From contig NZ_MAIQ01000008.1 of NCBI RefSeq assembly GCF_001678845.1, positions 1 to 64,000 on the forward strand: a stretch of DNA of 64,000 nt. The letters are read 5' to 3'. Each line of letters starts with the position of its first letter. Position 1 is the first letter of the stretch. The DNA is from Christensenella intestinihominis (GTDB lineage: Bacteria; Bacillota; Clostridia; Christensenellales; Christensenellaceae). Positions 39,542-58,083 of this stretch are shown in pieces. Both the position numbers and the translations under genes were made by a program. The notes beneath the pieces are model-generated. The model was given only the letters and a program-made list of their open reading frames with translations. It made no database searches and was not told the DNA's origin.

Positions 39542-41017
39542 ATGAGTGTTTTAGAATTCAGGAACGTATCAAAATCGTTCCCAGGGGTAAAAGCGCTGGG
39601 TGATATCAGCTTCGCGGTAGAAAAGCAGGAAGTCCATGTCCTGATTGGCGAAAACGGCGCCGGGAAATCGACCTTAATCAAAATTTTGACCGGTGTAAAC
39701 AGCGCGGACCCGGGAAGTGAAATATGGATTGACAACAAAAAGGCGGAAATCGGTTCCCCGGTGGATGCACTGAACCTTGGAATCGTCGCAATTTATCAGG
39801 ATTTTTCCCTGTTTGACAACCTGAGCGTGGTGGAAAATATTGCGCTTGGATTACAGGTGACCCGGCAGAAAAAGGTTGTGGATTGGAAGGGAATGCGCAA
39901 AAAGGCGGAGCAGGCCATGAAAAAGGTTCGCCTTGAGGCGGACCCGGACGAACTGGTAGCCAATATTTCCGTTGCAAAAAAGCAGCTTGTGGCCATTGCA
40001 CGCGCACTGGTCTACGACGTAAAGGTGCTGATCATGGACGAGCCGACCTCCTGCTTGTCACAGGGAGAAGTGGAACAGCTGTTTGAGATTGTACGCGAAC
40101 TGAAAGCGGACGGCGTTACGATTATTTTTGTCAGCCATAAAATGGAAGAAATTTTCGAGATTGGCGACCAGATCACCGTACTGCGGGACGGGCAGTATAT
40201 CAAAACGGCGTCAAAGGATAATATTACGATCGATGAACTGATCGAGTTGATGGTAGGCCGCAAAGTGACCTATGAAACCTATGGGAAACGAAAAATGAAT
40301 GAACCCGTCCTACGGGTGGAAAACCTCTGCAAAAAGGCAAATTTCAAAGATATCAGCTTTGAACTGAATAAAGGGGAAATTCTTGGCGTGACCGGTCTCG
40401 TCGGCGCGGGGCGGACAGAAATGGTGCAGGCAATTTTTGGCCTCAACAAACCCGATTCCGGCGCGATTTACTTGCACGGAAAAAAAATAACAATCCATTC
40501 GCCTGTCGATGCAATCAAGCATAAATTCGGTTATGTGCCTGAAAACCGCCTGACGGAAGGCCTGGTCCAGACGCAGAGCATCAAGCGGAATTTGAACGTA
40601 GCGATTTTGGAAAAACTGAAAAAGGGGGTATTCCTGAGCGATACGGCGCGGAGCAAATCGGCCGCGAACTGGATGGAGAAATTATCCATTAAACCGGTTC
40701 TTCCCGATATGCCGGTGGGAAAACTCTCCGGGGGAAACCAGCAGCGCGTGGTCATTGCAAAATGGCTGGCGACCGATCCCGAGGTTTTGATTGTAGATGA
40801 ACCGACAGCGGGGATTGACATCGGTGCGAAAGAGGAAATCCACCGTCTGCTTCGGGAATTGTCGGACGGAGGAATGAGCATTATTGTAGTCAGCTCCGAG
40901 CTCCCGGAGGTCATTTCCATTTGCGACAGGATTCTGATTATGAAAAACGGAAGAATTGTCGCGGAAATGGGCGAAGGGGCGACACAGGAAGAAATACTCA
41001 ATAAAGCGGTTCTATAG
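39542..41017 (+). CDS. Sugar ABC transporter ATP-binding protein (RbsA/MglA type)
   Basis: The 491-residue protein has two fused ATPase domains as in the ribose/galactoside class. First: Walker A GENGAGKSTLIKIL (about residues 36-49), signature NISVAKKQLVAIA, Walker B VLIMDEPTSCL (about 160). Second: degenerate GLVGAGRTEMV in place of Walker A, signature LSGGNQQRV (about 396), Walker B VLIVDEPTAG. It powers import through the two permeases that follow. AGGAGGG precedes the ATG, under LacI-type operators. Confidence 0.93.
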   Translation: MSVLEFRNVSKSFPGVKALGDISFAVEKQEVHVLIGENGAGKSTLIKILTGVNSADPGSEIWIDNKKAEIGSPVDALNLGIVAIYQDFSLFDNLSVVENIALGLQVTRQKKVVDWKGMRKKAEQAMKKVRLEADPDELVANISVAKKQLVAIARALVYDVKVLIMDEPTSCLSQGEVEQLFEIVRELKADGVTIIFVSHKMEEIFEIGDQITVLRDGQYIKTASKDNITIDELIELMVGRKVTYETYGKRKMNEPVLRVENLCKKANFKDISFELNKGEILGVTGLVGAGRTEMVQAIFGLNKPDSGAIYLHGKKITIHSPVDAIKHKFGYVPENRLTEGLVQTQSIKRNLNVAILEKLKKGVFLSDTARSKSAANWMEKLSIKPVLPDMPVGKLSGGNQQRVVIAKWLATDPEVLIVDEPTAGIDIGAKEEIHRLLRELSDGGMSIIVVSSELPEVISICDRILIMKNGRIVAEMGEGATQEEILNKAVL

Positions 41018-41030
41018 TGGGGGAAGAAGC

Positions 41031-42038
41031 ATGGAAAGAGTGCGTAACTTATTTAAGAAAAAAGAAGCGGGAATTATCACAATATTCATTATTGTGATGA
41101 TAATCATTACAATCGGGAACAACGCATTCCTCAGCCCGGCCAACATCATGAACATATTGACCACCAATATTGTCATGGGGATCGCCGCGCTCGGCATGCT
41201 GCTCGTTATTATTACGGGCGGGATCGATGTGTCAATCGGATGGGTAATTACCATTGTAACCGTTGTGATCGGCGAATTTTCGACGAAGGTGGGCGGGAAC
41301 CTGTTCATACTGATTCTGGTTGCATGCGCGACAGGCGCCGCGTTCGGGCTGGCAAATGGAATTTTGGTAGCCCACCTGAAACTGCCTGCGATCGTTGCGA
41401 CGCTGGGCACGATGAGCATCATCAACGGCCTGGTGCTGCTGGTGACAAACGGGAAATATATCCGGGAACTGCCGGACTATATCTCCGGGCTGGGCCAGCA
41501 GTATTTATTCAAGGTTGAAATGGCGGAAGGAGGCTTTTATGGCTTCCCGGTGATCTGGCTCTTCTGGATCGGCGCGATTGTCCTCACGTGGTTTGTGCTG
41601 CGCCATACGCTCGTCGGCCGCGGAATTTATGCGGTCGGCGGAAATGTGGAATCGGCGGAGCGGGTGGGCTACCGCCCCAAACGGGTGCTGACATTCGCAT
41701 ATGTTTATACCGGAATTATGGCCGGCCTCGCGGCTGTTGTGCATACGGGCATCGTAAGGATTGTGGACCCGCTTGCGTTCAAAGGGTTTGAAATGCAGGT
41801 CATCGCCGCGGTTGTTGTCGGTGGGGCGAACGTGCTCGGGGGCTACGGCACGGTGCTTGGGACGACGATCGGCGTGATTTTTATGGGCGTAATCAACAAC
41901 GGTATGGTATTGATGCATATCCCGACGTTCTATCAGAAAATTGCAGTCGGACTGATTATTTTGATCGCTGTTTCGATTGATGTCGTGCAACAGACCATGA
42001 AGGAACGCAGGATGGTCAAAGTCGACATCAAGGATTGA
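41031..42038 (+). CDS. Sugar ABC transporter permease 1
   Basis: A 335-residue inner-membrane permease of the RbsC family with about nine to ten helices. IVMGIAALGMLLVIITGGIDVSIGW (about residues 46-70) is the conserved family block, and VVVGGANVLGGYGTVLGTTIGV (about 262-283) the EAA-like loop. It pairs with the permease at 42052 as a heterodimer. The ATG at 41031 has GGGGGAAG upstream. Confidence 0.92.
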   Translation: MERVRNLFKKKEAGIITIFIIVMIIITIGNNAFLSPANIMNILTTNIVMGIAALGMLLVIITGGIDVSIGWVITIVTVVIGEFSTKVGGNLFILILVACATGAAFGLANGILVAHLKLPAIVATLGTMSIINGLVLLVTNGKYIRELPDYISGLGQQYLFKVEMAEGGFYGFPVIWLFWIGAIVLTWFVLRHTLVGRGIYAVGGNVESAERVGYRPKRVLTFAYVYTGIMAGLAAVVHTGIVRIVDPLAFKGFEMQVIAAVVVGGANVLGGYGTVLGTTIGVIFMGVINNGMVLMHIPTFYQKIAVGLIILIAVSIDVVQQTMKERRMVKVDIKD

Positions 42039-42051: not shown

Positions 42052-43038
42052 ATGAAAAAGATAAAGGCAAAGTCGAGTGAGGTTTACGTATTACTGGGGG
42101 TTTTGGCCGCGATCATTATCCTGTTCGGGGTAGCGTCCGGCGGCGCGTTGTTCAGCGGAAATATCCTGCAGACATTTGCATTCCAGTTTCCTGAGTTCGG
42201 GTTGCTTGCCCTTGGCATGATGGTGGCGATCCTGACGGGCGGAATCAATATGTCGTTGGTATCCACAGCCGCTTTGGCAGGAATCCTTGGCGCGATGGTG
42301 CTCTCCAATCCGGCGCTTGACGAAACGACGGCAATCACCCTTGGAATCGTGGTCTGCGTGGGCAGCGCGTGCCTGATGGGCGCCCTCAACGGCGCGATTA
42401 TCGCATGCCTGAATGTGCCGCCAATGCTCGTTACGATTGGAACCATGACCCTGTTTGAAGGAATCAGCCTGAACCTGACGGAGGGCGGGGCGATATCCGG
42501 TTTCCCGGAAACATTTTTCCAGGTCGGTTCCGGAAGCATCCTCGGGATTCCCATCCCGCTGCTGCTGTTCATCATTATGGCGGTGATCCTGTTCCTGCTG
42601 CTGGAAAAAACCCCGTGGGGCGAAAAAGTGTATATGCTGGGCAGCAACCCGAAGGTCACGCGTTATTCCGGCATCAATAATACGGCGGTGTTGTTCAGGG
42701 TATACGTTTTATCGGGGCTGATGTGCGGCCTGGCGGCGCTGATAATGATCTCCCGGTATAATTCGACGAAGGTGGATTACGGCGCGTCCTACCTGCTGCA
42801 GACGGTATCTGCGGTTGTGCTTGGCGGCACAAGCATCAGCGGAGGCTATGGAAAGGTAGCGGGAACGGTGATTGCCATTCTGGTCATCCAGATGATTACA
42901 ACCGGCTTCAACCTGCTGGGGATCAACAAGCTGTTCACCGATATCTGTGTTGGAGCGGTGCTGATTGCGGTCCTTGCCGCAAACTCGCTCAAGGAATCCG
43001 GTAAATTAAATTTCTCGAAAAAGAGAAATCTTGCTTAA
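42052..43038 (+). CDS. Sugar ABC transporter permease 2
   Basis: The 328-residue second permease of the same family: FGLLALGMMVAILTGGINMSLV (about residues 48-69) and VVLGGTSISGGYGKVAGTVIAI (about 258-279). Two different permeases with one fused ATPase is the arrangement of rhamnose- and AI-2-type importers. GGAGGAGCAGG precedes the ATG. Confidence 0.92.
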   Translation: MKKIKAKSSEVYVLLGVLAAIIILFGVASGGALFSGNILQTFAFQFPEFGLLALGMMVAILTGGINMSLVSTAALAGILGAMVLSNPALDETTAITLGIVVCVGSACLMGALNGAIIACLNVPPMLVTIGTMTLFEGISLNLTEGGAISGFPETFFQVGSGSILGIPIPLLLFIIMAVILFLLLEKTPWGEKVYMLGSNPKVTRYSGINNTAVLFRVYVLSGLMCGLAALIMISRYNSTKVDYGASYLLQTVSAVVLGGTSISGGYGKVAGTVIAILVIQMITTGFNLLGINKLFTDICVGAVLIAVLAANSLKESGKLNFSKKRNLA

Positions 43039-43082
43039 TGGGTAAAACCATAATAAAAGGGCAAAGAAACGAGGAGGTAAAA

Positions 43083-44174
43083 ATGAAGAAAAGATTGTTG
43101 GCAGTATTGATGGTGGTTCTGGCTGTGGCGCTTGTATTTACAGGCTGCGGAACACCGGCGGCAAATTCATCCGAAAGCGCCGAGGCATCGGCCCCGGCAG
43201 CGGAAGAGTCGTCGGAAGCATCAACGGCGGACTCGCCGGAGCCGGCGGGCGATGCGGCGGAGGACGGCGAATTTACCGCACTTGTTCTTCCTAAAATGAT
43301 CGGCATACCGATTTTTGACGCATTCGAGGCAGGCGCTGTAAAAGCGATGGAAGATTATGGCATCAACGTGATCTATACCGGCCCGACTACGGCGGACGCG
43401 GTAGAACAGGTCAAAATCCTGGAAGACTACCTCAACAAAGGGATTGACTGCGTAGTAGTGGCGCCGAACGACCCGGCGGCGTTTACACCGGTTCTGAAAA
43501 AGGCAAAAGAGCAGGGCGTAACCGTGGTAGACTGGGACTCCTATGCGGAAGAAGGCATCGCGGACCTGTCTTGCAGGCAGCTGAACGATGAGGAATTCGG
43601 CAAGGCGATTTGGGACGGCCTTGCGGAAGCTATGGGAGAAGAAGGAGAATATGCGATTATTACGGGCGGCCTTTCCGCAGAGAACCTGAACACATGGATT
43701 GCGGCGGGAACGACGTATGCGGAAGAAAAATATCCGAACCTCAAGCTGGTGACGGACCCGGTTCCCTGCGATGAGAAACAGCAGCAGGCTTACACGAAGG
43801 CGCAGGAGCTGATCCAGGCGTATCCGGACCTGAAGGGAATCGTGGGAATCAGCACGCCGGCGCCCATCGGCGCGGCGCAGGCGGTTCAGGAAAAAGGGCT
43901 GCAGGATAAAATTGCGGTTGTCGGGACGGTTTGCCCGAACGACGCAAAGCCCTTCCTGGAAGATGGTTCGCTGGACAGCGGCTACCTGTACGACCCGACG
44001 GGCTTCATGAACGCAACGGTTTACCTTGCGTGGCAGAAGGCTCTCGGAAAAGAAATCACCGATCAAATGGAAATCCCGAATACGGGGGAAAAGGTGACGG
44101 TTGAGGGTTCGGACGTAACCTATGCGCCGCCGCTCAAATTCACGAAGGACAATGTAAACGACTATAATTTCTAA
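43083..44174 (+). CDS. Sugar ABC transporter substrate-binding lipoprotein
   Basis: The 363-residue periplasmic-binding-protein-1 lipoprotein has a signal with lipobox FTGC (lipidated Cys about residue 22), an acidic Ser/Ala/Glu linker to about residue 60, then a LsrB/RhaS-like fold: LVLPKMIGIPIFDAFEAG, GPTTADAVEQVKILEDYL and VVDWDSYAEEG. The AI-2-contact pair of LsrB, Asp-Gln before Asn-x-Trp, is replaced (NLNTW), so a sugar-like ligand is more probable. GAGGAGGT precedes ATG 43083. A strong hairpin follows the gene. Confidence 0.9.
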   Translation: MKKRLLAVLMVVLAVALVFTGCGTPAANSSESAEASAPAAEESSEASTADSPEPAGDAAEDGEFTALVLPKMIGIPIFDAFEAGAVKAMEDYGINVIYTGPTTADAVEQVKILEDYLNKGIDCVVVAPNDPAAFTPVLKKAKEQGVTVVDWDSYAEEGIADLSCRQLNDEEFGKAIWDGLAEAMGEEGEYAIITGGLSAENLNTWIAAGTTYAEEKYPNLKLVTDPVPCDEKQQQAYTKAQELIQAYPDLKGIVGISTPAPIGAAQAVQEKGLQDKIAVVGTVCPNDAKPFLEDGSLDSGYLYDPTGFMNATVYLAWQKALGKEITDQMEIPNTGEKVTVEGSDVTYAPPLKFTKDNVNDYNF

Positions 44175-44248: not shown

Positions 44249-45226
44249 ATGAAATTTAACCTGGATTGCCATTTGTTTTGTTTCGGAACGTTCAGCGAGC
44301 GTTACGTGCCGGACGGGTATTATGATGATGTAGACGTCAAAAAAGCGTTTGAAACGATCGCTTCCACCCCGGTAAAGGGATTTATGAATACATGGAAACC
44401 GGCGCTTCTTCCGGAAGACCCGGAAAAGAACAAAAAATTCCTGGCGGAATATGGATTGGTGCCCTCGCTGGTGCTGATCGATAATTTTGGGGACAGGATG
44501 TTTCGGCATGGGGCGTACTCCACCTCGCAAAAGGATATACAAAAGGAGAATATGAAGCTGTGCAAGGACGGGATTGATTTTGCGAAGGCCCTCGGGGTGC
44601 ACAGCGTATTGCTTTGGCCCGCGCATGACGGAATGGACTATCCGTTCTCGGTGGATTACCGTGCGACCTGGGACCGCATGGTGGACAATTTTATCGAAAT
44701 CGCGGAATATGCGGGCGATATGAAGCTCGCCATCGAACCGAAACCGCAGGACCCGCGCCAGAAAATGCTGGTCAACAGCACGGGCAAGGCGATGATGCTG
44801 GTAAACGACATCGGCAGGGATAACGTGGGGCTGGCGCTTGACGTGGGGCATTCCTTTGCCGCGGCGGAAAATCCGGCGGAAGCCTGCGTCGTCATGGACC
44901 GGCATAATAAGCTGTTCCAGGTGCATTTGAATGATAATTATAAAAATGCGGACCCGGACATGATCTTCGGAACGGTTAATTTCTGGGAAAATCTTGAATT
45001 TATGTATTATCTCCTGCAAACTGATTTTGACGGCTGGTGCTCGGTGGATATCATTGCAAACCGGGAAAACAGGGAGGATTCCTTCAAGGCATGCGTCGGG
45101 CTGATTGAAAAATATTACGAGCTGGCAAGCAGGCTGGTGGAAAAGAAGGACGTGCTGCAGGCGAATATGGAGGATTACCGTTTCAGCAAGAACATCGAGC
45201 TCATCAGCAGCATTATTTTCAAATAA
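44249..45226 (+). CDS. Sugar isomerase/epimerase, xylose-isomerase-like TIM barrel
   Basis: The 325-residue protein has metal-site signatures of the AP-endonuclease-2/xylose-isomerase superfamily: LAIEPKPQDPR (Glu about 163), LALDVGHSFAA (Asp/His about 194), FQVHLND (His about 225) and VDIIAN near the end. SVLLWPAHDGMDYPFSVDYRATWDRM resembles the xylose-isomerase GGREG-region. It likely isomerises or epimerises the imported sugar or its derivative; the exact reaction is unknown. It is third-function gene in the LacI-controlled importer operon. Confidence 0.8.
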   Translation: MKFNLDCHLFCFGTFSERYVPDGYYDDVDVKKAFETIASTPVKGFMNTWKPALLPEDPEKNKKFLAEYGLVPSLVLIDNFGDRMFRHGAYSTSQKDIQKENMKLCKDGIDFAKALGVHSVLLWPAHDGMDYPFSVDYRATWDRMVDNFIEIAEYAGDMKLAIEPKPQDPRQKMLVNSTGKAMMLVNDIGRDNVGLALDVGHSFAAAENPAEACVVMDRHNKLFQVHLNDNYKNADPDMIFGTVNFWENLEFMYYLLQTDFDGWCSVDIIANRENREDSFKACVGLIEKYYELASRLVEKKDVLQANMEDYRFSKNIELISSIIFK

Positions 45227-45273: not shown

Positions 45274-46068
45274 ATGACGAAAAAACTGGAACATAAGGTA
45301 GCGTGGGTAAGCGGCGCAAACAAGGGGATCGGCGCGGGAGTCGCGCGGCTGTTTGCAGAGGAAGGCGCAAAGGTGGCGATGATCGGACGCACACCCCGCG
45401 AAGGCGAAGCGCTGGCAAAAGAAATTTGCAATGCCGGGGGTGAAGCGTTTTTCTTCCGCTGCGACGTATCGAAGGAAAACGAGGTGAAGGCCTCGATAGA
45501 AGAAACGGTCAAGCGTTATGGAACGGTGGATATCCTCGTGAATAATGCCGGAATTGTCGACGTTAAAATGCTGCACGACTATACGTCCGAGGAATGGGAC
45601 CGCGTAATGGGAATCAATGTAAAATCCATGTTTTTTTCTTTCAAATATGCGTTTCCCTATTTAAAGGAACACGATATGAGCTATGTGGTCAACGTTGGAT
45701 CGATTTCAAGCTTTGTCGGCCAGGATTGCACGCCGGTTTACACCACGTCCAAGGGCGCGGTGCTGAACCTTTCCAAATCAATCGGGCTTGATTACGCGCG
45801 CTTCGGAATCCGCTGCAACTGCGTATGCCCGGGCATTACGGATACGCCGATGCTCCATACGCACCTGGATACGGAGAAAGACCCGGAAGCGCATTATAAG
45901 AACCGCCTGCGCCGTGTGCCGATCAACCGGCCGCTGTGGCCGGATGACGTCGCCAAGGCGTGCCTGTTTTTCGCCTGCGAGGATTCCTCCGGAATTACCG
46001 CAACGTCGCTGACGGTAGACGGGGGATATCTTGCGTGCGCCGAGTGGGACGCTGCAAAACACGAATAG
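45274..46068 (+). CDS. SDR-family sugar dehydrogenase-like protein
   Basis: A 264-residue classical SDR: SGANKGIGAGVARLF (residues 14-28), VNNAG near 88, catalytic Ser in NVGSISSF, and Tyr-x3-Lys in YTTSK near 155-159. It probably oxidises a hydroxyl of the sugar or polyol with NAD(P)+. A second SDR lies 20 bases on, so two successive oxidations or one oxidation/reduction pair are likely. Substrate unknown. Confidence 0.85.
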   Translation: MTKKLEHKVAWVSGANKGIGAGVARLFAEEGAKVAMIGRTPREGEALAKEICNAGGEAFFFRCDVSKENEVKASIEETVKRYGTVDILVNNAGIVDVKMLHDYTSEEWDRVMGINVKSMFFSFKYAFPYLKEHDMSYVVNVGSISSFVGQDCTPVYTTSKGAVLNLSKSIGLDYARFGIRCNCVCPGITDTPMLHTHLDTEKDPEAHYKNRLRRVPINRPLWPDDVAKACLFFACEDSSGITATSLTVDGGYLACAEWDAAKHE

Positions 46069-46087: not shown

Positions 46088-46834
46088 ATGGATTTTACAG
46101 GCAAGACAGCTATTGTTACCGGCGCTGCCAAGGGGATTGGGCGCGGCTGTGCGGAGATTCTCGCCAGGAACGGCGCGAATGTGGTTCTGGCGGATATAAA
46201 CCTTGAAATGGCCGTGGAAACGGAGCAGGCTTTCAAGAAGGAAGGCCTGCAGGCAAAAGCGGTGCAGGTCAATGTGAAATCGGTTGCGGATATTGAAAAA
46301 ATGGTGCAGTCGGCGGTCCGTTCGTTTGGCACGGTGGATATCCTGGTCAATAATGCGGGGATATTCCACGCAACGCCCATTGAGGAAATTACCGAACAAG
46401 AGTGGGACAATATCGTGGATATAAACCTGAAAAGCGTGTTTTTTGCCACGCAAAAGGTCCTGCCCTACATGAAGGAAAAGAAAAGCGGAAAAATTGTGAA
46501 TCTTTCCTCGCTGGCCGGGCGCAACGGAGGATTCACGAACGGGATGGGCTACTCGGCGACGAAGGCGGGAATTATAGGCCTGACACGCGGCTTTGCGGCG
46601 CGGCTGGCGCAATATGGCATCAACATAAACGCGGTCGCCCCCGGGTCAACGGACACGGGGATACTTGACGGGCTGGGCGAAAGTGAAATCAGGAGCCTGA
46701 CGGAAAAAATCCCGCTCGGCCGGTTTGGGAAGACGGCGGAAATCGCCTCCGTTGTGGCGTTCCTGTGCTCGGATGAAGCGGCGTTTATGACGGGTGCCGT
46801 GGTGGACGTCAACGGCGGCATGTATTTTGGATAA
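46088..46834 (+). CDS. SDR-family dehydrogenase, second
   Basis: A 248-residue SDR with VTGAAKGIGRGCAEIL (about residues 10-25), VNNAG near 84, Ser in LSSLAGR and Tyr-x3-Lys YSATK near 152-156. The C-terminal VVDVNGGMYFG matches FabG/KduD-like enzymes. Together with the first SDR it acts on intermediates of the locus; the exact order is unknown. GGAGGCGG precedes ATG 46088. Confidence 0.85.
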   Translation: MDFTGKTAIVTGAAKGIGRGCAEILARNGANVVLADINLEMAVETEQAFKKEGLQAKAVQVNVKSVADIEKMVQSAVRSFGTVDILVNNAGIFHATPIEEITEQEWDNIVDINLKSVFFATQKVLPYMKEKKSGKIVNLSSLAGRNGGFTNGMGYSATKAGIIGLTRGFAARLAQYGININAVAPGSTDTGILDGLGESEIRSLTEKIPLGRFGKTAEIASVVAFLCSDEAAFMTGAVVDVNGGMYFG

Positions 46835-48062: not shown

Positions 48063-48108
48063 TTGACATTCCGGATAGAAAGTTTTACACTTAATTTAAC
48101 GATAAACT
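48063..48108 (+). promoter_or_regulatory. Promoter with LacI-type operator O3, catabolic operon
   Basis: TTGACA at 48063-48068 and TACACT at 48086-48091 with 17-base spacing. The operator AATTTAACGATAAACT covers 48093-48108, at the expected start of transcription. Confidence 0.7.
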
Positions 48109-48243
48109 AGATGACGCAAATTCAACCACACATTTTTTCAAGACTGACAGGACGGTAGAATGAAATAGTGAAAAGCACAAAAATGTGCTGAAAAGTGTAC
48201 AAAAGCGGACCCTGATTACGCCGGCATATTGATATGAAAATTT

Positions 48244-48259
48244 AGTTTAACGATAAATT
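48244..48259 (+). promoter_or_regulatory. LacI-type operator O4
   Basis: AGTTTAACGATAAATT, 33 bases before the MBL gene ATG, the same distance as O2 from its gene, and centred 151 bases from O3. Confidence 0.65.
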
Positions 48260-48291
48260 TAAACTGGCGGAGACGGAAAGGAAGGAAAAAA

Positions 48292-49120: not shown

Positions 49121-49176
49121 AGTACGGAATCCTCGCAATAAATGAGAATATATTTATGTATACGGAGGGAATTATT

Positions 49177-50085: not shown

Positions 50086-51132
50086 ATGGATAAAAAAACA
50101 CAGGCTTATGTAAAACAGACATTGCCGGCGCTCAAGGAGCTGAAAGCGCCCGAGGGGATGCCGCTTGACGAACAGAAACGGATATACCGCCAGATGTGCC
50201 TTATCCGGGAATTTGACTCCCAGGTTAAAACACTGTGGATGAAAAATGAAATTTACGGCCTCGCGCATTCCTATGTGGGCGCGGAAGCAATTGCGGTCGG
50301 CGCGTGTGAAAACCTTACAAAGGACGATTTTATCACCTCGACCCACCGCGGGCATGGACACACCATTGCCAAAGGCGCAAATACCCGCGCAATGATGGCG
50401 GAGCTCCACGGGAAATACGAGGGCCTCAACCGCGGCAAGGGCGGGTCGATGCATATTGCCGACGTTGATATCGGCATGCTCGGCGCGACGGGGATCGTCG
50501 GCAGCGGAATGCCGATTGCAATCGGCAGCGCGATTTCCGCAAAGGTGCTGAAAAACGACCGCGTTACCATTTGCTTCCACGGCGACGGCGGCACGAACCA
50601 GGGCGTATGGCACGAATCCATCAACATGGCGGCCGCGTGGAACCTCCCGGCGATTTTCTTGATTGAAAATAACCAGTATGCAATCGCGACGAAGATCGGC
50701 TGGGTCGCAAAGGAAACGGACCTTTATAAGCGCGCGGTGGGCTATGGAATCGAAGGCGTGCAAATCGACGGATTCAATGTGTTCGACGTATACAACGCGG
50801 TGAAGAAGGCCGTGGAAAAAGCGCGGAGCGGCGGCGGCCCGACGCTCATCGAGGCGCGTTATATCCGCTTGCTCGGCCATTTCGTGGCGGACGACCAGTG
50901 GTACAGGGATTTAAAGGCGGACGAAATATTTTGGGAATACGAGCCCATCAAGCGCATGAAAGAATATTTCATCAGCAATAAACTCCTGAGCGGGAAAGAA
51001 GTGGATGCAATCCGGCAGGATGCAATCGACGAGATTACAGACGCAATTCACTATGCGCAGAACGAATGCACGGAACCGCCGGCAGATACGCTTTATGACG
51101 ATATCTACGCGGACGGCGAGATCATCTACTAA
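50086..51132 (+). CDS. 2-Oxo-acid dehydrogenase E1 alpha subunit (pyruvate/acetoin type)
   Basis: The 348-residue TPP enzyme subunit has the family's GKGGSMHIADVDIGMLGATG block (about residues 119-138) and the TPP/Mg motif CFHGDGGTNQGVWHESINMA...IENNQYA (GDG about 165-167, NN about 193). It decarboxylates a 2-oxo acid and passes the acyl to E2 lipoyl domains, with E1 beta. The acetoin dehydrogenase alpha subunit is the closest well-known type, but no acetoin regulator is present and the gene lies among sugar-acid enzymes. Confidence 0.88.
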   Translation: MDKKTQAYVKQTLPALKELKAPEGMPLDEQKRIYRQMCLIREFDSQVKTLWMKNEIYGLAHSYVGAEAIAVGACENLTKDDFITSTHRGHGHTIAKGANTRAMMAELHGKYEGLNRGKGGSMHIADVDIGMLGATGIVGSGMPIAIGSAISAKVLKNDRVTICFHGDGGTNQGVWHESINMAAAWNLPAIFLIENNQYAIATKIGWVAKETDLYKRAVGYGIEGVQIDGFNVFDVYNAVKKAVEKARSGGGPTLIEARYIRLLGHFVADDQWYRDLKADEIFWEYEPIKRMKEYFISNKLLSGKEVDAIRQDAIDEITDAIHYAQNECTEPPADTLYDDIYADGEIIY

Positions 51133-51150: not shown

Positions 51151-52143
51151 ATGGCAGTCATAACCGTAAGACAGGCACTCAATGATGCCTTTAAAGAAGA
51201 AATGAAAATAGACCCCACGATTATTATGATGGGGTGCGACATCGGCGTGCGCGGCGGCCCGTTCGGCATTACGCTCGACCTGATGAACCTGTATGGAAAA
51301 GACCGCGTCATCGATACGCCGATTTCCGAGCCTGCGTTCGTCGGCGCGTGCGTGGGCGCGGCGGCGACGGGCCTCCGCCCGGTCGCGGAGGTCCTGTATT
51401 CGGACTGGATCACCCTTGGCATGGACCAGCTCGTCAATATGGCGGCAAAAATGCGCTATATGTTCGGCGGCAAGGTGCATATGCCCCTCGTGGTGCGCGC
51501 CCCGTTCGGCGCGGGCGGCGGCATCGCGGCTCAGCATTCCCAGTCGTTCGAGGCATGGTTCAACCACGTGCCGGGCTTCAAGGTAGTCGCGCCCATCGAG
51601 CCCTACGACGTAAAGGGCATGATGAAAACAGCGCTCCGGGACGACAACCCGGTCATTTTCTTTGAGCATAAAAGAAGCTACCAGCTCAAGGGGGAAGTCC
51701 CCGAGGGCGAAGAGGGCGAAACCTACACGGTGCCGTTCGGCAAGGCGGCGGTGCGCCGCGAGGGCACGGACGTGACGATTGTCGCCTATTCCATGATGGC
51801 GATCCGCGCGAAAAAAGCGGCGGAAGAGCTTGCGAAGGAGGGCATCTCCTGCGAGGTGATCGACCTGATTTCCCTGCTGCCCCTCGACTACGAAACGGTC
51901 ATGAACTCCGTCGGGAAAACCAGCCGCGTCGTTGTCTGCCAGGAGGCGAACCTCCGCGGCGGTATGGCGGGCGATATTGTTTCCGAAATTATCGACCGGG
52001 GCTTTGACCTCCTTGACGCGCCTCCGGTGCGCGTGGGCGCGCTGAATGTTCCGATGCCGTACAACAAGGGCCTTGAAGATTTGTGCATCCCGGACGAGCA
52101 GAAAATCAAGGATGCGGTATATAAGGTTCTCGACAACAAATAA
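51151..52143 (+). CDS. 2-Oxo-acid dehydrogenase E1 beta subunit
   Basis: The 330-residue E1 beta has VITVRQALNDAFKEEM at the start, DTPISEPAFVGACVGAAATGLRP (about residues 53-75), VVRAPFGAGGGIAAQHSQSFEAWF and the C-terminal transketolase-C part EVIDLISLLPLDYETV. It completes the TPP active site with E1 alpha. GGGAGGAACG precedes the ATG. Together with 50086, 52159 and 53686 it gives a complete complex within one operon. Confidence 0.9.
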   Translation: MAVITVRQALNDAFKEEMKIDPTIIMMGCDIGVRGGPFGITLDLMNLYGKDRVIDTPISEPAFVGACVGAAATGLRPVAEVLYSDWITLGMDQLVNMAAKMRYMFGGKVHMPLVVRAPFGAGGGIAAQHSQSFEAWFNHVPGFKVVAPIEPYDVKGMMKTALRDDNPVIFFEHKRSYQLKGEVPEGEEGETYTVPFGKAAVRREGTDVTIVAYSMMAIRAKKAAEELAKEGISCEVIDLISLLPLDYETVMNSVGKTSRVVVCQEANLRGGMAGDIVSEIIDRGFDLLDAPPVRVGALNVPMPYNKGLEDLCIPDEQKIKDAVYKVLDNK

Positions 52144-52158: not shown

Positions 52159-53673
52159 ATGGCAAGAAAAATGGCTTTGCCTAAAATAGGCGTAAATATG
52201 ACGGAGGCCGTTATCGCGAAGTGGCTCGTAGGGCCGGGCGACAAGGTAAACGAGGGCGACCCGATCATAGAGGCGGAGACGGACAAGTCGACGCAGGAAA
52301 TCTATGCGACGGAGAGCGGAATCGTCGCGAAGCTCCTCGCAGATGAGGGCGAAACGGTGCAGTGCTATTCGGACATCATGGTATTGGTGGACGAAGGCGA
52401 AGAATACCACGGGGAAGCGGCGGAAAAGCCGGAGCAGGCGGGGCAGCCCGCCGCGCCCGGGGCGGGCATACGCAGGATGCAGCTTCCTAAAATAGGCGTG
52501 AACATGACGGAAGCCGTTATCGCAAAATGGCTCGTGGGGCCGGGCGACAAGGTAAACGAGGGCGATCCGATCATAGAGGCGGAGACGGACAAGTCGACGC
52601 AGGAAATCTATGCGACGGAGAGCGGAATCGTCGCGAAGCTCCTCGCAGATGAGGGCGAAACGGTGCAGTGCTATTCGGATATTATGGTTCTCACGGACGA
52701 GGGCGTGGAATACGACGAAGCGGAAGACGCCGCCCCCGCAGAAACGGAAGGGCCAAAGGCGCGGGAAGCGACTCCTCCTGAAACTCCTGCGCCGGTCCGG
52801 CCCGCGGTTCCGGCTGCCGTGCCGGGGACGCGCGTGAGGATTTCGCCCCTCGCAAAAAAGATTGCGAAGGAAAACGGGATCGATTTTCGTCTGGTTCCAC
52901 CGGCGGTGCCGGGCGGACGCATCGTAAAGGCGGACGTCCTGCGTTTCCTGCAAAACGGCGGCCCGGCGGTCCCCACAGCGGCATATGAGGACGCGGCGCT
53001 GCCGAACATCCGCAAGGTGATTGCGAAGTCCATGCATGCGTCCCTCTCCGAAATGGCGCAGCTGACGCACTCCTTCTCCTTCGACGCGACACAGGTTATG
53101 GCGTACCGCAAAATCGTCAAGGAAAACGCGGAGAAGCTCGGCCTTGCGAATATTACCTTCAACGATATTATCCTCTTCGCGGTTTCGCGCGTAATCCTGA
53201 ACCATAGGGACCTCAACGCGCATTTCCTCGGGGATAAGATGCGGTATTTCACGGACGTGAACCTCGGCATGGCGGTGGATACGCCGCGGGGGCTCCTCGT
53301 CCCGACGATTTTCGGGGCGAACAAAATGTCGCTCAACGAAATCGCGGTTGCGGCGAAGGACCTTGCGAAACAGGCGCAGGAAGGAACGATCTCCCCGGAC
53401 CTGTTGTCGGGCGCGTCCTTTACGGTCTCGAACCTGGGAACGTTCGGGGTAGAACACTTCACGCCGGTGATAAACCCGCCGCAGACGGGCATCCTCGGTG
53501 TAAACAACATCCAGACGAAGCTGAAGATGGTGGACGGGGAAGCGGTTCCGTACCAGGCGATGGGAATATCGTTGACGTATGACCACAGGGCGCTCGACGG
53601 CGCGCCGGCGTCGCGTTTCGCGCAGGAGCTGTGCAGGACGCTGGAAAACTTCATGGCGCTTTTGGCCAGGTAA
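52159..53673 (+). CDS. Dihydrolipoamide acyltransferase (E2) with two lipoyl domains
   Basis: The 504-residue E2 has two lipoyl domains (about residues 1-78 and 108-182), each with the target Lys in ETDKSTQEIY. The domains are separated by 102 codons, and 113 bases (52261-52373 and 52567-52679) are identical. An Ala/Pro linker, a peripheral subunit-binding domain (RISPLAKKIAKENGIDF...RIVKADVLRFLQ, about 227-262) and a catalytic core ending YDHRALDGAPASRFAQEL (His/Asp) follow. It accepts the acyl from E1 and forms acyl-CoA. Confidence 0.9.
   Translation: MARKMALPKIGVNMTEAVIAKWLVGPGDKVNEGDPIIEAETDKSTQEIYATESGIVAKLLADEGETVQCYSDIMVLVDEGEEYHGEAAEKPEQAGQPAAPGAGIRRMQLPKIGVNMTEAVIAKWLVGPGDKVNEGDPIIEAETDKSTQEIYATESGIVAKLLADEGETVQCYSDIMVLTDEGVEYDEAEDAAPAETEGPKAREATPPETPAPVRPAVPAAVPGTRVRISPLAKKIAKENGIDFRLVPPAVPGGRIVKADVLRFLQNGGPAVPTAAYEDAALPNIRKVIAKSMHASLSEMAQLTHSFSFDATQVMAYRKIVKENAEKLGLANITFNDIILFAVSRVILNHRDLNAHFLGDKMRYFTDVNLGMAVDTPRGLLVPTIFGANKMSLNEIAVAAKDLAKQAQEGTISPDLLSGASFTVSNLGTFGVEHFTPVINPPQTGILGVNNIQTKLKMVDGEAVPYQAMGISLTYDHRALDGAPASRFAQELCRTLENFMALLAR
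52261..52679 (+). repeat. Direct repeat within E2 gene (lipoyl domains)
   Basis: Positions 52261-52373 are identical to 52567-52679 (offset 306 bases, in frame). Flanking parts of the domains differ at synonymous positions. This is an internal duplication, probably kept alike by recombination. Confidence 0.88.
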
Positions 53674-53685
53674 GGGGTGCTGATG

Positions 53686-55071
53686 ATGGCAAGCTATGAC
53701 GTAATCGTAATCGGCGGCGGCCCGAGCGGCTATGTGGCCGCGATCAAAGCGGCGCTCGGCGGCAGAAAAACGGCGCTGGTAGAGAAGGAGCACCTCGGGG
53801 GCGTGTGCCTGAACTGGGGCTGTATTCCCACAAAGTCCCTGCTGCGGAATGCCGAAATTGTGCGCGGCCTTTCCGAAGGGGAGCGGTTCGGGTTTTCTGT
53901 CGGGGAAATCAAGGCGGACTATGCGGCCGCGCAGAAACGCAGCCGTGAGGTCAGCGCGCGGCTTGTCCGCGGTATCGAATACCTGATGAAAAAAAATAAA
54001 ATTACGGTATACAAAGAAAGCGCGCGCTTTACGGGCGCAAAGGAACTTACGCTTGCTCCCTCGGGCGGAAAGCTCGCCGCAGAAAATATTATCATTGCGA
54101 CGGGCAGCAAGCCGTTCGCGCTGCCCATGCTGGATTATTCGCTCGATAACGTGCTCGATTCCAAAAAAGCGTTGCAGATGACGCGAATCCCGAAAAGTAT
54201 TATAATTATAGGCGCGGGGGCGATTGGCATGGAGTTTGCAACGGTGTTCCGTTCCTATGGGGCGGAAGTGCACATCGTGGAAATGCTGCCCCGCGTACTG
54301 CCGAATGAAGACGCGGAGGTTTCCGTGCTCGTCGAAAAGGAATTCAGGAAAAGGGGCTTTGACGTACACACCGGGACAAGGCTCACCGGCGCCGCCAACG
54401 ATGGAAAAACGGTCAAAGCGCAATTTGAAAAGGACGGGAAACCGTTTGCCATAGAGGGTGAATGCATCCTCGCGGCAACGGGCGTGCGGCCGAATACGGA
54501 AGAGCTCAGCTTAAAAAGCTTTGGCATCAAAACGGACCGGCGCGGCTGCATTGAAGTGGACGCGGATATGCGCACCAGCGTCCCCGGCGTATATGCCATT
54601 GGCGACGTAACGGGCAGGCTGGCCCTCGCCCATACGGCGAGCGCGCAGGGAATGCGTGCGGTAAGCCATATTTGCGGCGAACCTGCCGAACCGCTCAATT
54701 ACAATAATATCCCCAAATGCACCTATGCCGTGCCCGAGGTGGCAAGCGCGGGGCTCACGGAGGCGAAAGCAAGGGAAGAGGGCTACGACGTAGGCGCGGC
54801 GGTGTTCCCGCTTTCCGCCAATGGGAAGGCAATTTCCTATGGCGACGATACAGGCTTTGTGAAGCTGGTCTATGATAAAAAATACGGCCAGCTCCTGGGG
54901 ATGCACATGGCGGGCGTCCACGTTACGGAAATGATATGGGGAGCCGTCGGCTACCTTGGCATGGAAATGACGGTCGAAGAAATGGCGGGGGTGGTACATC
55001 CCCATCCAACAGTCAGTGAAGCCATTATGGAGGCGGCGCACATGGCGAATGGACAGCCCATTCATATTTGA
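53686..55071 (+). CDS. lpdA: Dihydrolipoyl dehydrogenase (E3)
   Basis: A 461-residue pyridine nucleotide-disulfide oxidoreductase: VIVIGGGPSGYVAAIKAA (FAD, about residues 6-23), redox pair GGVCLNWGCIPTKSL (Cys about 39 and 44), NAD motif IIIGAGAIGMEFATVF (about 172-187), and C-terminal HPHPTVSEAIMEAAHMA with the catalytic His-Glu. It reoxidises E2 lipoyl groups. No lipoyl domain is fused. I use ATG 53686; an adjacent ATG at 53683 is equally possible. It ends in a strong hairpin at 55094. Confidence 0.93.
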   Translation: MASYDVIVIGGGPSGYVAAIKAALGGRKTALVEKEHLGGVCLNWGCIPTKSLLRNAEIVRGLSEGERFGFSVGEIKADYAAAQKRSREVSARLVRGIEYLMKKNKITVYKESARFTGAKELTLAPSGGKLAAENIIIATGSKPFALPMLDYSLDNVLDSKKALQMTRIPKSIIIIGAGAIGMEFATVFRSYGAEVHIVEMLPRVLPNEDAEVSVLVEKEFRKRGFDVHTGTRLTGAANDGKTVKAQFEKDGKPFAIEGECILAATGVRPNTEELSLKSFGIKTDRRGCIEVDADMRTSVPGVYAIGDVTGRLALAHTASAQGMRAVSHICGEPAEPLNYNNIPKCTYAVPEVASAGLTEAKAREEGYDVGAAVFPLSANGKAISYGDDTGFVKLVYDKKYGQLLGMHMAGVHVTEMIWGAVGYLGMEMTVEEMAGVVHPHPTVSEAIMEAAHMANGQPIHI

Positions 55072-55300: not shown

Positions 55301-55319
55301 AGGATAAGGAGGTGGCAAA

Positions 55320-56180
55320 ATGGCATATCGGTATGCATGCGCGGATTTCACGTTTCCTTTGCTTCCCCACGGGGATGTATTGAAACTGATTGGGATGATG
55401 GGGTTTGACGGGGTCGACGTGGGATTGTTTGAAGAACGTTCACACCTGCGGCCCTCCGGGGAATTTTGCGCCCCGGCGTCAAGCGGCGCGGAGCTTAAAA
55501 AAAAGGCAGGCGACGCGGGAATTGTGGTGGCGGACGCTTTCCTGCAAAGCGCGTTTGATTTTTCAGTGCGCGCGGCGAACCATCCCTCAAAAGCGATACG
55601 GGAAGAGGAACGAATCCGGTTCCGCAAGCTGATGGAGTATGCGTCCGCGGCGGGAAGCGGGCACATTACATGCCTGCCCGGCGTGGCGTTTGAAGGAGAG
55701 GCATATGAAACCTCCTATGGCCGCGCGTTGGAAGAATTGGCATGGCGTGTGGAACAGGCCAGGGAAGCGGGATTGGTGTTTGCGGTGGAAGCGCATTTGG
55801 GTTCGATTGCGGATACGCCGGACAGGGCCGGACAGCTTGTAGCCGATGTGCCGGGGCTGACCCTGACGCTGGATTACACCCATTTTACCAGGATTGGCAT
55901 CGCGGATGAGGAGATTGCGCCGCTGATAAAATATGCCTCGCATTTCCATGCGCGCGGCGCGGCGGAAGGAAGACTGCAAACGGTGGTTTCCGAAAACGCA
56001 ATCAATTACGACGCAGTGGTTGCGGAAATGGTCAAAACCGGATATCATGGATTTGTCGGGGTCGAATATACCTGGCAGGAATGGGAAGGCTGTAACAAAA
56101 CGGATAATGTTTCGGAGAGCATCCTGCTCATGAGGCAATTGAAGGATGCCGAGCGCAAAGCGCAGGGAATGGAAGAATGA
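55320..56180 (+). CDS. Hydroxypyruvate-isomerase-like TIM-barrel protein
   Basis: The 286-residue protein belongs to the xylose-isomerase-like TIM-barrel superfamily with candidate metal ligands in FAVEAHLGS (Glu about 157), LTLDYTHFTR (Asp about 183), SHFHARGAAEG (His about 211) and GVEYTWQEW (Glu about 243). Between tartronate-semialdehyde reductase and glycerate kinase, a hydroxypyruvate or related ketose isomerase is the simplest guess, but sequence alone supports only isomerase/epimerase. GGATAAGGAGGTGG precedes the ATG, and its end overlaps glycerate kinase by four bases. Confidence 0.75.
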   Translation: MAYRYACADFTFPLLPHGDVLKLIGMMGFDGVDVGLFEERSHLRPSGEFCAPASSGAELKKKAGDAGIVVADAFLQSAFDFSVRAANHPSKAIREEERIRFRKLMEYASAAGSGHITCLPGVAFEGEAYETSYGRALEELAWRVEQAREAGLVFAVEAHLGSIADTPDRAGQLVADVPGLTLTLDYTHFTRIGIADEEIAPLIKYASHFHARGAAEGRLQTVVSENAINYDAVVAEMVKTGYHGFVGVEYTWQEWEGCNKTDNVSESILLMRQLKDAERKAQGMEE

Positions 56181-57301
56181 AAATTGTAATTGCCCCGGAT
56201 TCTTTTAAAGGAACCATAACGTCAGGAGAGATATGCGATATTGTCGCGAAGGCGGTTATGCGCTATTTTCCGGAGGCGGACGTCGTAAAAATACCCGTTT
56301 CCGACGGCGGTGAAGGCATGGTGGATGCGCTGCTCGAAGGCGCGGGCGGCGAACGGGTAACGCTCGAAGTAACCGGGCCGGACTTTACCGTCGAACGGGC
56401 GGTCTATGGAATCCTGCCGGATGGCACGGCCGTGATCGAGATGGCCGAGGCCAGCGGGATTATGCTGGCGAAAATCCCCAGGCGGCCGATGGACGCGACC
56501 TCCCGCGGGACGGGACAAATGATCCGCGACGCGGCAAAGCGCGGATGCCGAAAGATAATCCTGGGAATCGGCGGCAGCGCGACAATGGACGCGGGGCTTG
56601 GGATGGCCGCGGCGATGGGCGTCCGGTTCCTGGACGGCAGCGGAGGGGAAGTGGAACCGACCGCGCGGGGGCTTGGCAAAATCGCACGCATCGACGCATC
56701 GGAAATCCCACAGGAGCTGCACGAGGCCGAGATACTGATTGCGAGCGATGTGAAGAACCCGGCGTGCGGGGAAATGGGCTCGGCCCATGTGTTTGGGAAA
56801 CAAAAGGGAGCGTCGCAGCAGGACATCATGGAAATCGACGGATGGATCGGCCGGTTTTGCGGGCTGGTCCGCGAGGCGACGGGCAAAGACCTGCTCCATA
56901 CGCCCGGAACGGGCGCGGCGGGCGGAATGGCGATTCCATTGCTCGCGTTTTTCGGGGCGAATATCGTGCCGGGAATCGACCTTGTCCTGGATGCGGCCGG
57001 TTTTGATGAAAAAATCTGCGGAGCGAACATGATTATTACCGGCGAGGGAATGCTGGACGGACAAAGCATGGAAGGAAAGGTGCCCGTCGGGGTCGCCCGG
57101 CGTGCAAAAAAAGAAGGGATTCCGGTCGTTGCGCTGGTGGGGGATATCGGGCCTGGTTATGCGCGTGCATACGGGGAAGGAATTACGGCGATTTTTTCCA
57201 CCAATAAAGCGGCGGTGCCCTTTGAGATTGCGAAGCGGACGAGCAAGGAAGACCTTGCGCTGCTTGCGGAATCGTTGTTTTCTTTCAAGGCAATCCGGTA
57301 G
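56177..57301 (+). CDS. Glycerate kinase, type I
   Basis: The 374-residue protein matches the GarK/GlxK family: MKIVIAPDSFKGTITSGEICD at the start, KIPVSDGGEGMVDALLEG (about residues 37-54), ILGIGGSATMDAGLGMAAAMG (about 127-147) and TPGTGAAGGMAIPLLAFFG. Class I enzymes phosphorylate D-glycerate, usually to 2-phosphoglycerate. With the reductase it makes a complete tartronate semialdehyde-to-glycolysis path. It shares ATGA with the isomerase gene. Confidence 0.93.
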   Translation: MKIVIAPDSFKGTITSGEICDIVAKAVMRYFPEADVVKIPVSDGGEGMVDALLEGAGGERVTLEVTGPDFTVERAVYGILPDGTAVIEMAEASGIMLAKIPRRPMDATSRGTGQMIRDAAKRGCRKIILGIGGSATMDAGLGMAAAMGVRFLDGSGGEVEPTARGLGKIARIDASEIPQELHEAEILIASDVKNPACGEMGSAHVFGKQKGASQQDIMEIDGWIGRFCGLVREATGKDLLHTPGTGAAGGMAIPLLAFFGANIVPGIDLVLDAAGFDEKICGANMIITGEGMLDGQSMEGKVPVGVARRAKKEGIPVVALVGDIGPGYARAYGEGITAIFSTNKAAVPFEIAKRTSKEDLALLAESLFSFKAIR

Positions 57302-57330
57302 GGACGGCCGGTAAACAGGAGGAATTCGTA

Positions 57331-58083
57331 TTGAAATTAGCGAGAATAAAAACAGAAAAGGGAGTTTTTTATGCGGAGGTACGGGGCGAAAAAGCCCTGC
57401 TGCTGCGCGAAGCCCCCTATGAAAAAATAGAATACAGCGGCGAAGAACTGCCGCTTGCGCAATGCACGCTGGCAGTGCCCAGCGAACCCGGGAACATTGT
57501 GGCGGTAGGCCTCAATTACCGGAGCCATGCCGAGGAAATCAAAATGGAGCTGAGGGAGGAACCGCTGATTTTTTCCAAATGGATCAGCTCGATCCTCGAC
57601 CCGGAAGGGACGATTATTAAACCGGACGTCTGCAAACAGCTGGATTACGAGGCAGAGCTGGCTTTTGTCGTGAAAAGGAAATGCAGGAAAATCAGGCGCG
57701 GGGATGCGGCGGACTATATTCTTGGCTATACCTGCCTGAACGATGTGACGGCGCGCGACCTGCAGGTGCCGGGCGATCAATGGGCGCGGTGTAAGGGCTT
57801 TGATACCTTCTGCCCGTTCGGGCCGTGGGTCGAAACGGAATTCGACCCGGAAAATGCGCATATCCGGGCAATCCTCAACGGGAAGGTCGTGCAGGACGGG
57901 AACACAAAGGATTTTATTTTCAATGTGTACGAGCTGCTGGAATATATCAGCGGATTCATGACGCTGTACCCGGGGGACGTTGTGACCACCGGGACGACGG
58001 GGGGCATTGGCCCGATGGAGCCGGGAGACGAGATATGCGTCGCGATAGACGGAATCGGAACGCTGAAAAACCGTATCGGGTAA
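57331..58083 (+). CDS. FAH-family hydrolase/decarboxylase
   Basis: The 250-residue fumarylacetoacetate-hydrolase-fold protein starts at TTG (AGGAGG eight bases before). It has the metal ligands in QLDYEAELAFVV (Glu-x-Glu) and LNDVTARDLQ (Asp), plus GFDTFCPFGPWV and TTGTTGGIGPMEPGD near the end. Relatives hydrolyse C-C bonds in acylpyruvates, such as 2,4-diketo-3-deoxy sugar acids to pyruvate plus a hydroxyacid. That reaction would fit a sugar-acid pathway, but the substrate is unknown. Last gene of the operon. Confidence 0.87.
   Translation: MKLARIKTEKGVFYAEVRGEKALLLREAPYEKIEYSGEELPLAQCTLAVPSEPGNIVAVGLNYRSHAEEIKMELREEPLIFSKWISSILDPEGTIIKPDVCKQLDYEAELAFVVKRKCRKIRRGDAADYILGYTCLNDVTARDLQVPGDQWARCKGFDTFCPFGPWVETEFDPENAHIRAILNGKVVQDGNTKDFIFNVYELLEYISGFMTLYPGDVVTTGTTGGIGPMEPGDEICVAIDGIGTLKNRIG

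Follow-up and report, generated by a model that had tools for sequence, protein, structure and literature searches.

How might a bacterium split the carbon chain of a sugar when its sugar genes stand together with a complete 2-oxo-acid dehydrogenase complex and with neither a dehydratase nor an aldolase? The question is raised by 17 co-directional genes of Christensenella intestinihominis, which span positions 39542-58083 of the 64,000-nucleotide stretch analysed here (positions 1 to 64,000 of contig NZ_MAIQ01000008.1, assembly GCF_001678845.1), hereafter the window. They encode a sugar importer, two TIM-barrel proteins (TIM1 and TIM2), two short-chain dehydrogenases (SDR1 and SDR2), a LacI-family regulator, a metallo-beta-lactamase-fold (MBL) hydrolase, the tartronate semialdehyde reductase GarR, the components E1, E2 and E3 of the complex, a glycerate kinase (GK) and a hydrolase of the FAH family. 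An initial annotation, made from the sequence alone, had described a sugar or sugar-acid pathway joined to such a complex; every component that it named was recovered by family scans and open reading frame (ORF) calls, co-directional and within the same span, and its remark that a dehydratase and an aldolase are absent agrees with the profile-family scans, in which neither family was listed for the 17 proteins. The LacI regulator, which it had left unnamed, also belongs to the set, and the gene of the binding protein starts at 43038 rather than at 43083. Our preferred reading, to which we give a probability of roughly 0.4, is that these genes form a LacI-controlled regulon in which E1-E2-E3 would cleave a 4-keto aldonate by the chemistry set out below.

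Conservation and probable joint control of the gene set

Palindrome scans of the intergenic gaps placed a predicted LacI-type operator before the importer operon and also before the MBL operon (Table 1). The corresponding pattern, TTTAACGWTAAAY, is matched exactly four times in the window, at three sites, where 100 shuffles led to an expectation of 0.02, and a search of the whole draft genome (3,026,655 bases in 29 contigs) returned these same three sites and no other. They precede importer-TIM1-SDR1-SDR2 and MBL-GarR-E1-E2-E3. The pattern was derived from these very sites, and thus it is not their presence but their exclusiveness, together with their position over consensus promoters, that counts as independent evidence. 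With one mismatch allowed, the genome gave counts of 10 and 10, near the 7 and 8 of the reversed control, and only exact sites were therefore used. In C. minuta the exact sites are confined to the same locus and to the same places; the three of C. massiliensis lie upstream of the importer, of MBL and of a third operon, SDR2-GK-FAH-RhaM; C. hongkongensis has a pair within the locus and a third site outside it (C50:930). Palindrome and pattern scans of the window found no operator before TIM2-GK-FAH, and these genes may be read through from E3.

Eight loci, chosen for carrying MBL and E1 together, were compared, and only the stretches that were read count: the window; C. minuta (L142, rest masked); C. 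massiliensis (L018, L141, L233); C. hongkongensis (L019); a termite-gut Clostridiales metagenome-assembled genome (MAG; L020); G038, of the same order (L005, L165); a Spirochaetes MAG (L021/L179); and a Desulfobacterales MAG (L022). The core of MBL, E1 and E2 with an SDR recurs in the Spirochaetes and Desulfobacterales MAGs, and in the Christensenella loci readable in full SDR1, SDR2, MBL, GarR, E1-E2-E3, TIM2, GK and FAH co-occur with an importer. SDR2 is present in all eight loci (within the third operon in C. massiliensis) and SDR1 in six, being unseen in L020 and L022; GarR directly precedes E1 alpha in every locus except L022; L020 and L165 showed no E3, and L142 is unreadable for this gene. 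The C. massiliensis importer is of another lineage, and the stretch read there holds no TIM1 orthologue. E1 beta of the MBL-linked type (E <= 1e-150) is rare, occurring in 2/392 genomes of the Spirochaetes group, 1/395 of the Desulfobacterales group and 6/396 of the order; two of its carriers, G432 and G039, show no MBL in the approximately 36 kb read. A search with the MBL alignment gave matches in 7 of 391 genomes of the class, three of them Christensenella.

The gene content of relatives, which the initial annotation had proposed to examine, thus shows the complex and the sugar genes side by side rather than always apart. As the core recurs in other phyla and a common operator ties both halves together, the set is more than a chance neighbourhood, and the earlier proposal of a single system, in which a dedicated E1-E2-E3 is coupled to the import and oxidation of a sugar, is upheld on both counts. 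Judged from these patterns, the complex and the sugar genes very probably form one jointly controlled system.

Type of the E1-E2-E3 complex

The E1 alpha subunit was placed in a maximum likelihood tree of 42 rows, including the eight from MBL loci and 25 paralogues from stretches of 10 genomes. The MBL-locus rows form a single clade (100/100) on a stem of 0.8, and this clade groups with three AcoA rows at a support of 84/90, two of which, from Enterococcus and Acinetobacter, come from operons with butanediol or acetoin dehydrogenase, the third (Sphingobium) being assigned by gene name only. Two PdhA and one BkdA fall across a branch supported at 100/97. A Rhizobium row could not be placed, and all 25 paralogous rows lie on the acetoin side of the tree rather than with PdhA and BkdA. 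The best family of the window subunit, TIGR03182 (pyruvate dehydrogenase E1 alpha), is matched with 326.1 bits, below the cut-off of 393.85. A pyruvate dehydrogenase complex was rejected on these two grounds, score and tree position, which set the E1 apart from the pyruvate type. E1 beta is 98, 94, 84, 76 and 74% identical to the window protein in five relatives, compared with 40-51% for the 25 paralogues, and E3 passes the TIGR01350 cut-off (556 vs 408.8 bits).

The same evidence bears on whether the complex may instead act on hydroxypyruvate, or on another ordinary 2-oxo acid supplied by the sugar genes, and release CO2 to form glycolyl-CoA or a similar product, as the classical 2-oxo-acid dehydrogenases do. 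The identity of the top family, as well as a fold and cofactor set common to all such complexes, would accord with this; the sub-threshold score and the exclusion of PdhA and BkdA from the clade would not, and we consider it unlikely. Acetoin-type E1 enzymes split an acyloin, releasing an aldehyde and passing an acyl group on to CoA. An E1 of this type could perform the C-C cleavage itself, so that the route may be complete even without a dehydratase and an aldolase. Of the features of an acetoin operon, neither a sigma-54 activator nor a Zn butanediol dehydrogenase is found among the 17 proteins; the SDRs do match the butanediol dehydrogenase BudC at 205.9 and 205.4 bits, below the cut-off of 270 and among other SDR families.

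Proposed pathway

In the scheme that we favour, one SDR would oxidise the sugar at C1 to a lactone, the MBL protein would open the lactone to the aldonate, and the other SDR would produce the 4-keto aldonate R-CO-CHOH-CHOH-COO-, an acyloin like acetoin; this intermediate is proposed because its cleavage, as an acyloin, releases tartronate semialdehyde. The acetoin-type E1 would cleave between C3 and C4, releasing tartronate semialdehyde, while the acyl group would pass through the lipoamide of E2 to CoA, with E3 regenerating the lipoamide at the expense of NAD+. GarR would then reduce tartronate semialdehyde to glycerate, and the kinase would convert this into 2-phosphoglycerate. The route would need neither an aldolase nor a dehydratase, and the acyl-CoA would depend on the sugar: lactoyl-CoA from a 6-deoxyhexose, acetyl-CoA from a 5-deoxypentose, glycolyl-CoA from a pentose and glyceryl-CoA from a hexose.

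The best-defined of these enzymes is GarR, which passes both equivalog cut-offs (NF008592, 488.9 vs 397 bits; TIGR01505, 409.6 vs 340.75 bits) and whose closest solved structure is the tartronate semialdehyde reductase 1vpd (393 bits; next, 243.4). At E <= 1e-20 it occurs as a single copy, at this locus, in the four Christensenella that carry the locus, and is absent from the two that lack it (G002 and C. timonensis, G004). Glyoxylate carboligase (Gcl) passes its cut-off in none of 10 genomes, all of which have matches below it, and in one of 14 controls; on this count it was discarded as the source of tartronate semialdehyde. HpcH/HpaI aldolases exceed the cut-off in none of the window genome (G000), C. 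massiliensis (G001), G002 and G425; they do so in six of the 10 genomes, including C. hongkongensis (G005) and, weakly, C. minuta (G003; 29.7 bits vs 25). Since GarR is present and the usual sources are lacking (Gcl throughout, HpcH/HpaI in G000 and G001), tartronate semialdehyde most likely arises within this pathway. The glycerate kinase passes the TIGR00045 subfamily cut-off (405.4 vs 168.45 bits).

The MBL protein has the UPF0173 fold, and its next fold matches are 2wyl and 2wym, which we take to be the UlaG lactonase. The lactonase likeness given in the initial annotation holds as similarity to the UPF0173/UlaG fold and fails at the level of the UlaG family itself, which is matched at 20.8 bits against a cut-off of 306; PRK00685 gives 137.1 bits, under its cut-off of 144. 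The metal motif reads HGAFDH (residues 51-56) where HxHxDH would be expected. Such an HxAxDH motif appears in 12 of 84 aligned loci, and E1 is nearby in 7/12 of these loci vs 0/72 with HxHxDH, a contrast between loci of different lengths that is biased in its sampling because the pattern used to scan the contigs of relatives (80 of 578 kept) itself contained HGAFDH; the E limit of the search also differed between the two groups (1e-20 and 1e-30). TIM2 belongs to the AP_endonuc_2 fold family, to which extent its earlier label of hydroxypyruvate-isomerase-like stands; it reaches only 28.2 bits with the isomerase model itself (TIGR03234), whose cut-off is 353.45.

The initial annotation had suggested that the set could cleave a diketo-acid to pyruvate and a hydroxyacid; such a cleavage by the FAH hydrolase is not supported as the core step. 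Besides the window, FAH is found in C. massiliensis, C. hongkongensis and G038, C. minuta being masked; the stretches read of the termite, Spirochaetes and Desulfobacterales MAGs, three of the eight loci, showed none, and hence FAH does not appear to be needed with this E1 set. This also weighs upon a hydrolytic route, in which the two SDRs would form a 2,4-diketo aldonate without dehydration, FAH would split it into a carboxylic acid and hydroxypyruvate, TIM2 would convert the latter into tartronate semialdehyde for GarR and the kinase, and E1-E2-E3 would oxidise a downstream 2-oxo acid such as pyruvate. There are arguments for it: the hydrolase resembles 2,4-didehydro-3-deoxy-L-rhamnonate hydrolase (176.1 bits, cut-off 500; 8gsr, 152.4 bits), with HpaG and other isomerase/hydrolase models scoring higher; FAH, GK and SDR2 share an operator-bearing operon in C. 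massiliensis; and a Mesorhizobium plasmid, outside our eight loci, which were chosen for having E1, pairs MBL with FAH, two dehydrogenases, a sugar importer and a 3-oxo-tetronate kinase, with no E1. Nevertheless, the missing FAH genes, an E1 that groups away from the pyruvate type and the low isomerase score of TIM2 make such a route improbable, though it is slightly the likeliest of the alternatives.

Several observations weigh against E1-E2-E3 cleavage of a 4-keto aldonate. Support for the grouping of E1 with AcoA is no higher than 84/90, and another row that bears an acetoin oxidoreductase annotation (Sphingobium TomMM7A) stays outside the group. GarR is missing from the Desulfobacterales locus, which carries a single SDR. 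A glycerate kinase of the PF02595 family, the only kinase family sought, was not found in the Spirochaetes and Desulfobacterales genomes (nor in C. minuta, but there the stretch is masked); the family is present in both Christensenella without the locus and so is not specific to it. C. hongkongensis, which has the locus, carries a strong HpcH/HpaI aldolase (157.7 bits). The scheme assigns no step to TIM1, TIM2 or FAH, the stretch shows no gene using an acyl-CoA other than acetyl-CoA, and all the steps are inferred from sequence.

Nature of the imported sugar

The substrate-binding protein gives its best score, among eight families, with the RhaS model TIGR02637 (181.9 bits), the cut-off of 342.25 not being reached; LsrB follows at 117.3 bits, also below its cut-off. 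The presence of LsrB structures among its top matches raises autoinducer 2 (AI-2), or a similar methylated diketone, as a substrate on which an acetoin-type E1 could act. This would leave two SDRs, GarR and the glycerate kinase without a role, and with the LsrB match weaker than that of RhaS we rejected AI-2 as highly improbable.

Genes of rhamnose metabolism recur around the locus in relatives. A RhaM-family mutarotase (PF05336) lies in the operator-bearing third operon of C. massiliensis and adjoins the locus in G038 and in the Spirochaetes MAG; it is present, unlinked to the locus, in the window genome, C. minuta, C. hongkongensis and the termite MAG, which amounts to seven of eight genomes with the locus against neither of the two Christensenella without it. 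Around the C. massiliensis locus there are, in addition, RhaA (over its cut-off) and RhaB-like and RhaI-like genes (under theirs), relatives of which occur in G038. The linked rhamnose genes in three relatives suggest a rhamnose-like 6-deoxyhexose as the substrate, and the imported aldose is probably a deoxy sugar. A 5-deoxypentose is another candidate: acetyl-CoA would be its direct product, in keeping with the absence of further acyl-CoA genes from the stretch.

In the inositol pathway of Thermotoga, a cyclitol is oxidised to a diketone and the ring is then hydrolysed. Two dehydrogenases, a hydrolase and TIM barrels would suit a similar cyclitol route, in which the SDRs would form the diketone and MBL would open the ring, and the Mesorhizobium dehydrogenases beside MBL match IolG (113.8 vs 355 bits) and IolM (165 vs 450 bits, not the best match), far below the cut-offs. 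Such a hydrolysis would, however, yield a 5-keto acid and not tartronate semialdehyde, and the mutarotase in the C. massiliensis regulon points to a reducing sugar. According to the strain data given in PMC7937921, C. intestinihominis AF73-05CM02 uses L-rhamnose and D-fucose, not inositol or L-fucose; with this phenotype, and a literature search for IolN that found nothing, the inositol route was set aside, and we regard cyclitols in general as very unlikely. The sugars listed as utilised by C. hongkongensis in Table 1 of PMC8289216 do not include rhamnose, although this species has the complete locus, which counts against L-rhamnose itself.

Genes of the uroporphyrinogen-decarboxylase (UROD) family, up to four per locus, lie beside the locus in four relatives (L018, L020, L165, L166, L179), and in two of these they stand with rhamnose isomerase and kinase genes. 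One may speculate that they serve O-methylated sugars. They were left out of the pathway because the window stretch holds none and no operator precedes those of C. massiliensis.

Features of the locus and its surroundings

The features are collected in Table 1. The gap before TIM2 (55072-55319) contains a strong hairpin, read from the sequence at approximately 55097-55126, and a 48-residue cysteine-rich ORF (55154-55300). The upstream neighbours (31414-38895) are unrelated genes of fatty-acid synthesis and acetyl-CoA carboxylase, and a bacterial large signal recognition particle RNA lies at 5947-6213 (194.6 bits).

Table 1. Predicted genes and control elements of the locus, in window coordinates
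Feature	Position	Strand	Basis
Sigma-70-type promoter TTGACA-17-TAAACT, importer operon; overlapped by operator 1	39145..39173	+	consensus match only
LacI-type operator 1, AAATTTAACGTTAAACTT (predicted)	39157..39174	.	palindrome and pattern scans
LacI-type operator 2 (predicted), one mismatch to pattern	39493..39510	.	palindrome and pattern scans
Sugar ABC transporter ATPase, two ABC domains	39542..41017	+	family scan
Permease 1 (BPD_transp_2); start uncertain, ORF opens 40956	41031..42038	+	family scan
Permease 2 (BPD_transp_2)	42052..43038	+	family scan
Substrate-binding protein, Peripla_BP_4; RhaS best, then LsrB	43038..44174	+	family and structure matches
TIM1, xylose-isomerase-like TIM barrel (AP_endonuc_2)	44249..45226	+	family scan
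SDR1 dehydrogenase	45274..46068	+	family scan
SDR2 dehydrogenase; start uncertain, ORF opens 46031	46088..46834	+	family scan
LacI-family regulator, probable repressor of the regulon	47020..48027	+	family scan; relative in 7/8 loci, not Desulfobacterales
Promoter TTGACA-17-TACACT, MBL-E1-E2-E3 operon	48063..48091	+	consensus match only
LacI-type operator 3 (predicted), directly after -10 box	48092..48109	.	palindrome and pattern scans
LacI-type operator 4 (predicted)	48243..48260	.	palindrome and pattern scans
MBL-fold hydrolase, UPF0173-like, HxAxDH for HxHxDH; predicted lactonase	48292..49065	+	family scan, alignment, fold
GarR, tartronate semialdehyde reductase; probable start ~49177, as homology begins at residue 21	49117..50067	+	equivalog scan, structure match
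E1 alpha, acetoin-dehydrogenase-like	50086..51132	+	family scan and tree
E1 beta	51151..52143	+	family scan
E2 acyltransferase, two near-identical lipoyl domains, E3-binding and catalytic domains	52159..53673	+	family scan
E3 dihydrolipoyl dehydrogenase	53677..55071	+	family scan
TIM2, AP_endonuc_2 TIM barrel, fold family only	55320..56180	+	family scan
Glycerate kinase	56177..57301	+	family scan
FAH-family hydrolase	57331..58083	+	family scan

Related complexes

The two lipoyl domains of the window E2 are identical at 75/78 residues and 212/234 bases. This E2 is 48% identical to that of the same operon in C. hongkongensis and 69% identical to an E2 of its own genome (L136), which adjoins an 823-residue E1-like protein; this pattern suggests that a paralogue has replaced the operon E2. 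Christensenella genomes carry many more acetoin-like E1 sets (L134-L173), often near sugar importers, FGGY kinases, SorC or DeoR regulators and, at times, aldolases, and C. hongkongensis alone has eight E1 beta-like matches at E <= 1e-100, this locus counted. In one run of that genome (L151:4497-10367), a RuBisCO-like protein stands with E1 alpha/E1 beta, a 2-hydroxyacid dehydrogenase, an FGGY kinase and a sugar importer. A plasmid of Rhizobium sp. B230/85 (L226:1-10221) combines E1 alpha/E1 beta/E2 with a sorbitol-type phosphotransferase system, a sugar-binding regulator and a 441-residue NAD(P)H oxidoreductase. The latter matched no NCBIfam model; if it should be a DXR-like (DRL) enzyme, the complex could cleave deoxyxylulose phosphate. 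It seems likely that acetoin-like complexes are more widely used in sugar breakdown.

Relation to known systems and significance

The glycerate branch of glyoxylate and galactarate metabolism in Escherichia coli comprises GarR, Hyi and GarK. GarR and a glycerate kinase are common to that branch and to the present set, whereas the window genome has no Gcl and no HpcH/HpaI aldolase over the cut-off. The acetoin dehydrogenase complex (AcoABCL) shares the E1-E2-E3 gene set, and the E1 alpha clade lies beside AcoA at a support of 84/90; here, however, the clade sits on its long separate stem, the neighbours are a sugar importer, SDRs, MBL, GarR and GK, and control is of the LacI type, in contrast to the sigma-54 regulator of the Enterococcus acetoin operon. 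With respect to the UPF0173/UlaG metallo-hydrolases, the subfamily differs in its HxAxDH motif.

The closest described logic is that of the oxidative deoxyribose pathway, which, as outlined in PMC6365646, runs from deoxyribose through deoxyribonate and ketodeoxyribonate to acetyl-CoA and glyceryl-CoA. Sugar oxidation, a lactonase, an SDR, acyl-CoA-forming cleavage and a glycerate kinase are shared; the cleavage enzyme differs, a lipoamide complex with a tartronate semialdehyde reductase being present here, and the family scans of the 17 proteins, to which that search was confined, listed neither a beta-keto acid cleavage enzyme nor a thiolase. The rhamnose pathways presented in PMC3870299 proceed either by a dehydratase and an aldolase or by a phosphorylated route. 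The non-phosphorylated ones, in which an L-rhamnonate dehydratase is combined with an aldolase or with a 4-dehydrogenase and a hydrolase, resemble the present set in the logic of a sugar dehydrogenase and lactonase, in an FAH relative of diketo-deoxy-rhamnonate hydrolase and in the RhaM of relatives, but here the complex and GarR would take the place of the dehydratase and aldolase: neither a dehydratase nor an aldolase family was listed for the 17 proteins, HpcH/HpaI aldolases being the only ones sought elsewhere in the genome. A literature search of titles and abstract openings, whose coverage excluded most subscription journals, found no earlier description of a lipoamide complex in sugar cleavage.

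All together, we tentatively propose, at somewhat less than even odds, that sugars are broken down here in a new way: a lipoamide-dependent E1-E2-E3 would stand in for the aldolase and, by oxidative cleavage of a keto-aldonate, yield an acyl-CoA together with tartronate semialdehyde. It would belong to a larger family of systems of this kind, given the many related acetoin-like complexes that Christensenella genomes carry near other sugar importers and kinases.

If the proposal is correct, an enzyme class known for pyruvate, branched-chain acids and acetoin also cleaves sugars, keeping the energy of C-C cleavage as a thioester, and this would explain why the anaerobic Christensenella keep so many of these complexes. 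It would likewise give a function to a subfamily of MBL metallo-hydrolases for which we found none, and it offers a testable substrate class for a conserved, unnamed gene set present in three phyla. C. minuta is described in PMC12692188 as associated with leanness. For C. intestinihominis, the scheme would represent an undescribed way of sugar breakdown in a human-gut bacterium, with an acetoin-dehydrogenase-like complex in the place of the usual aldolase.

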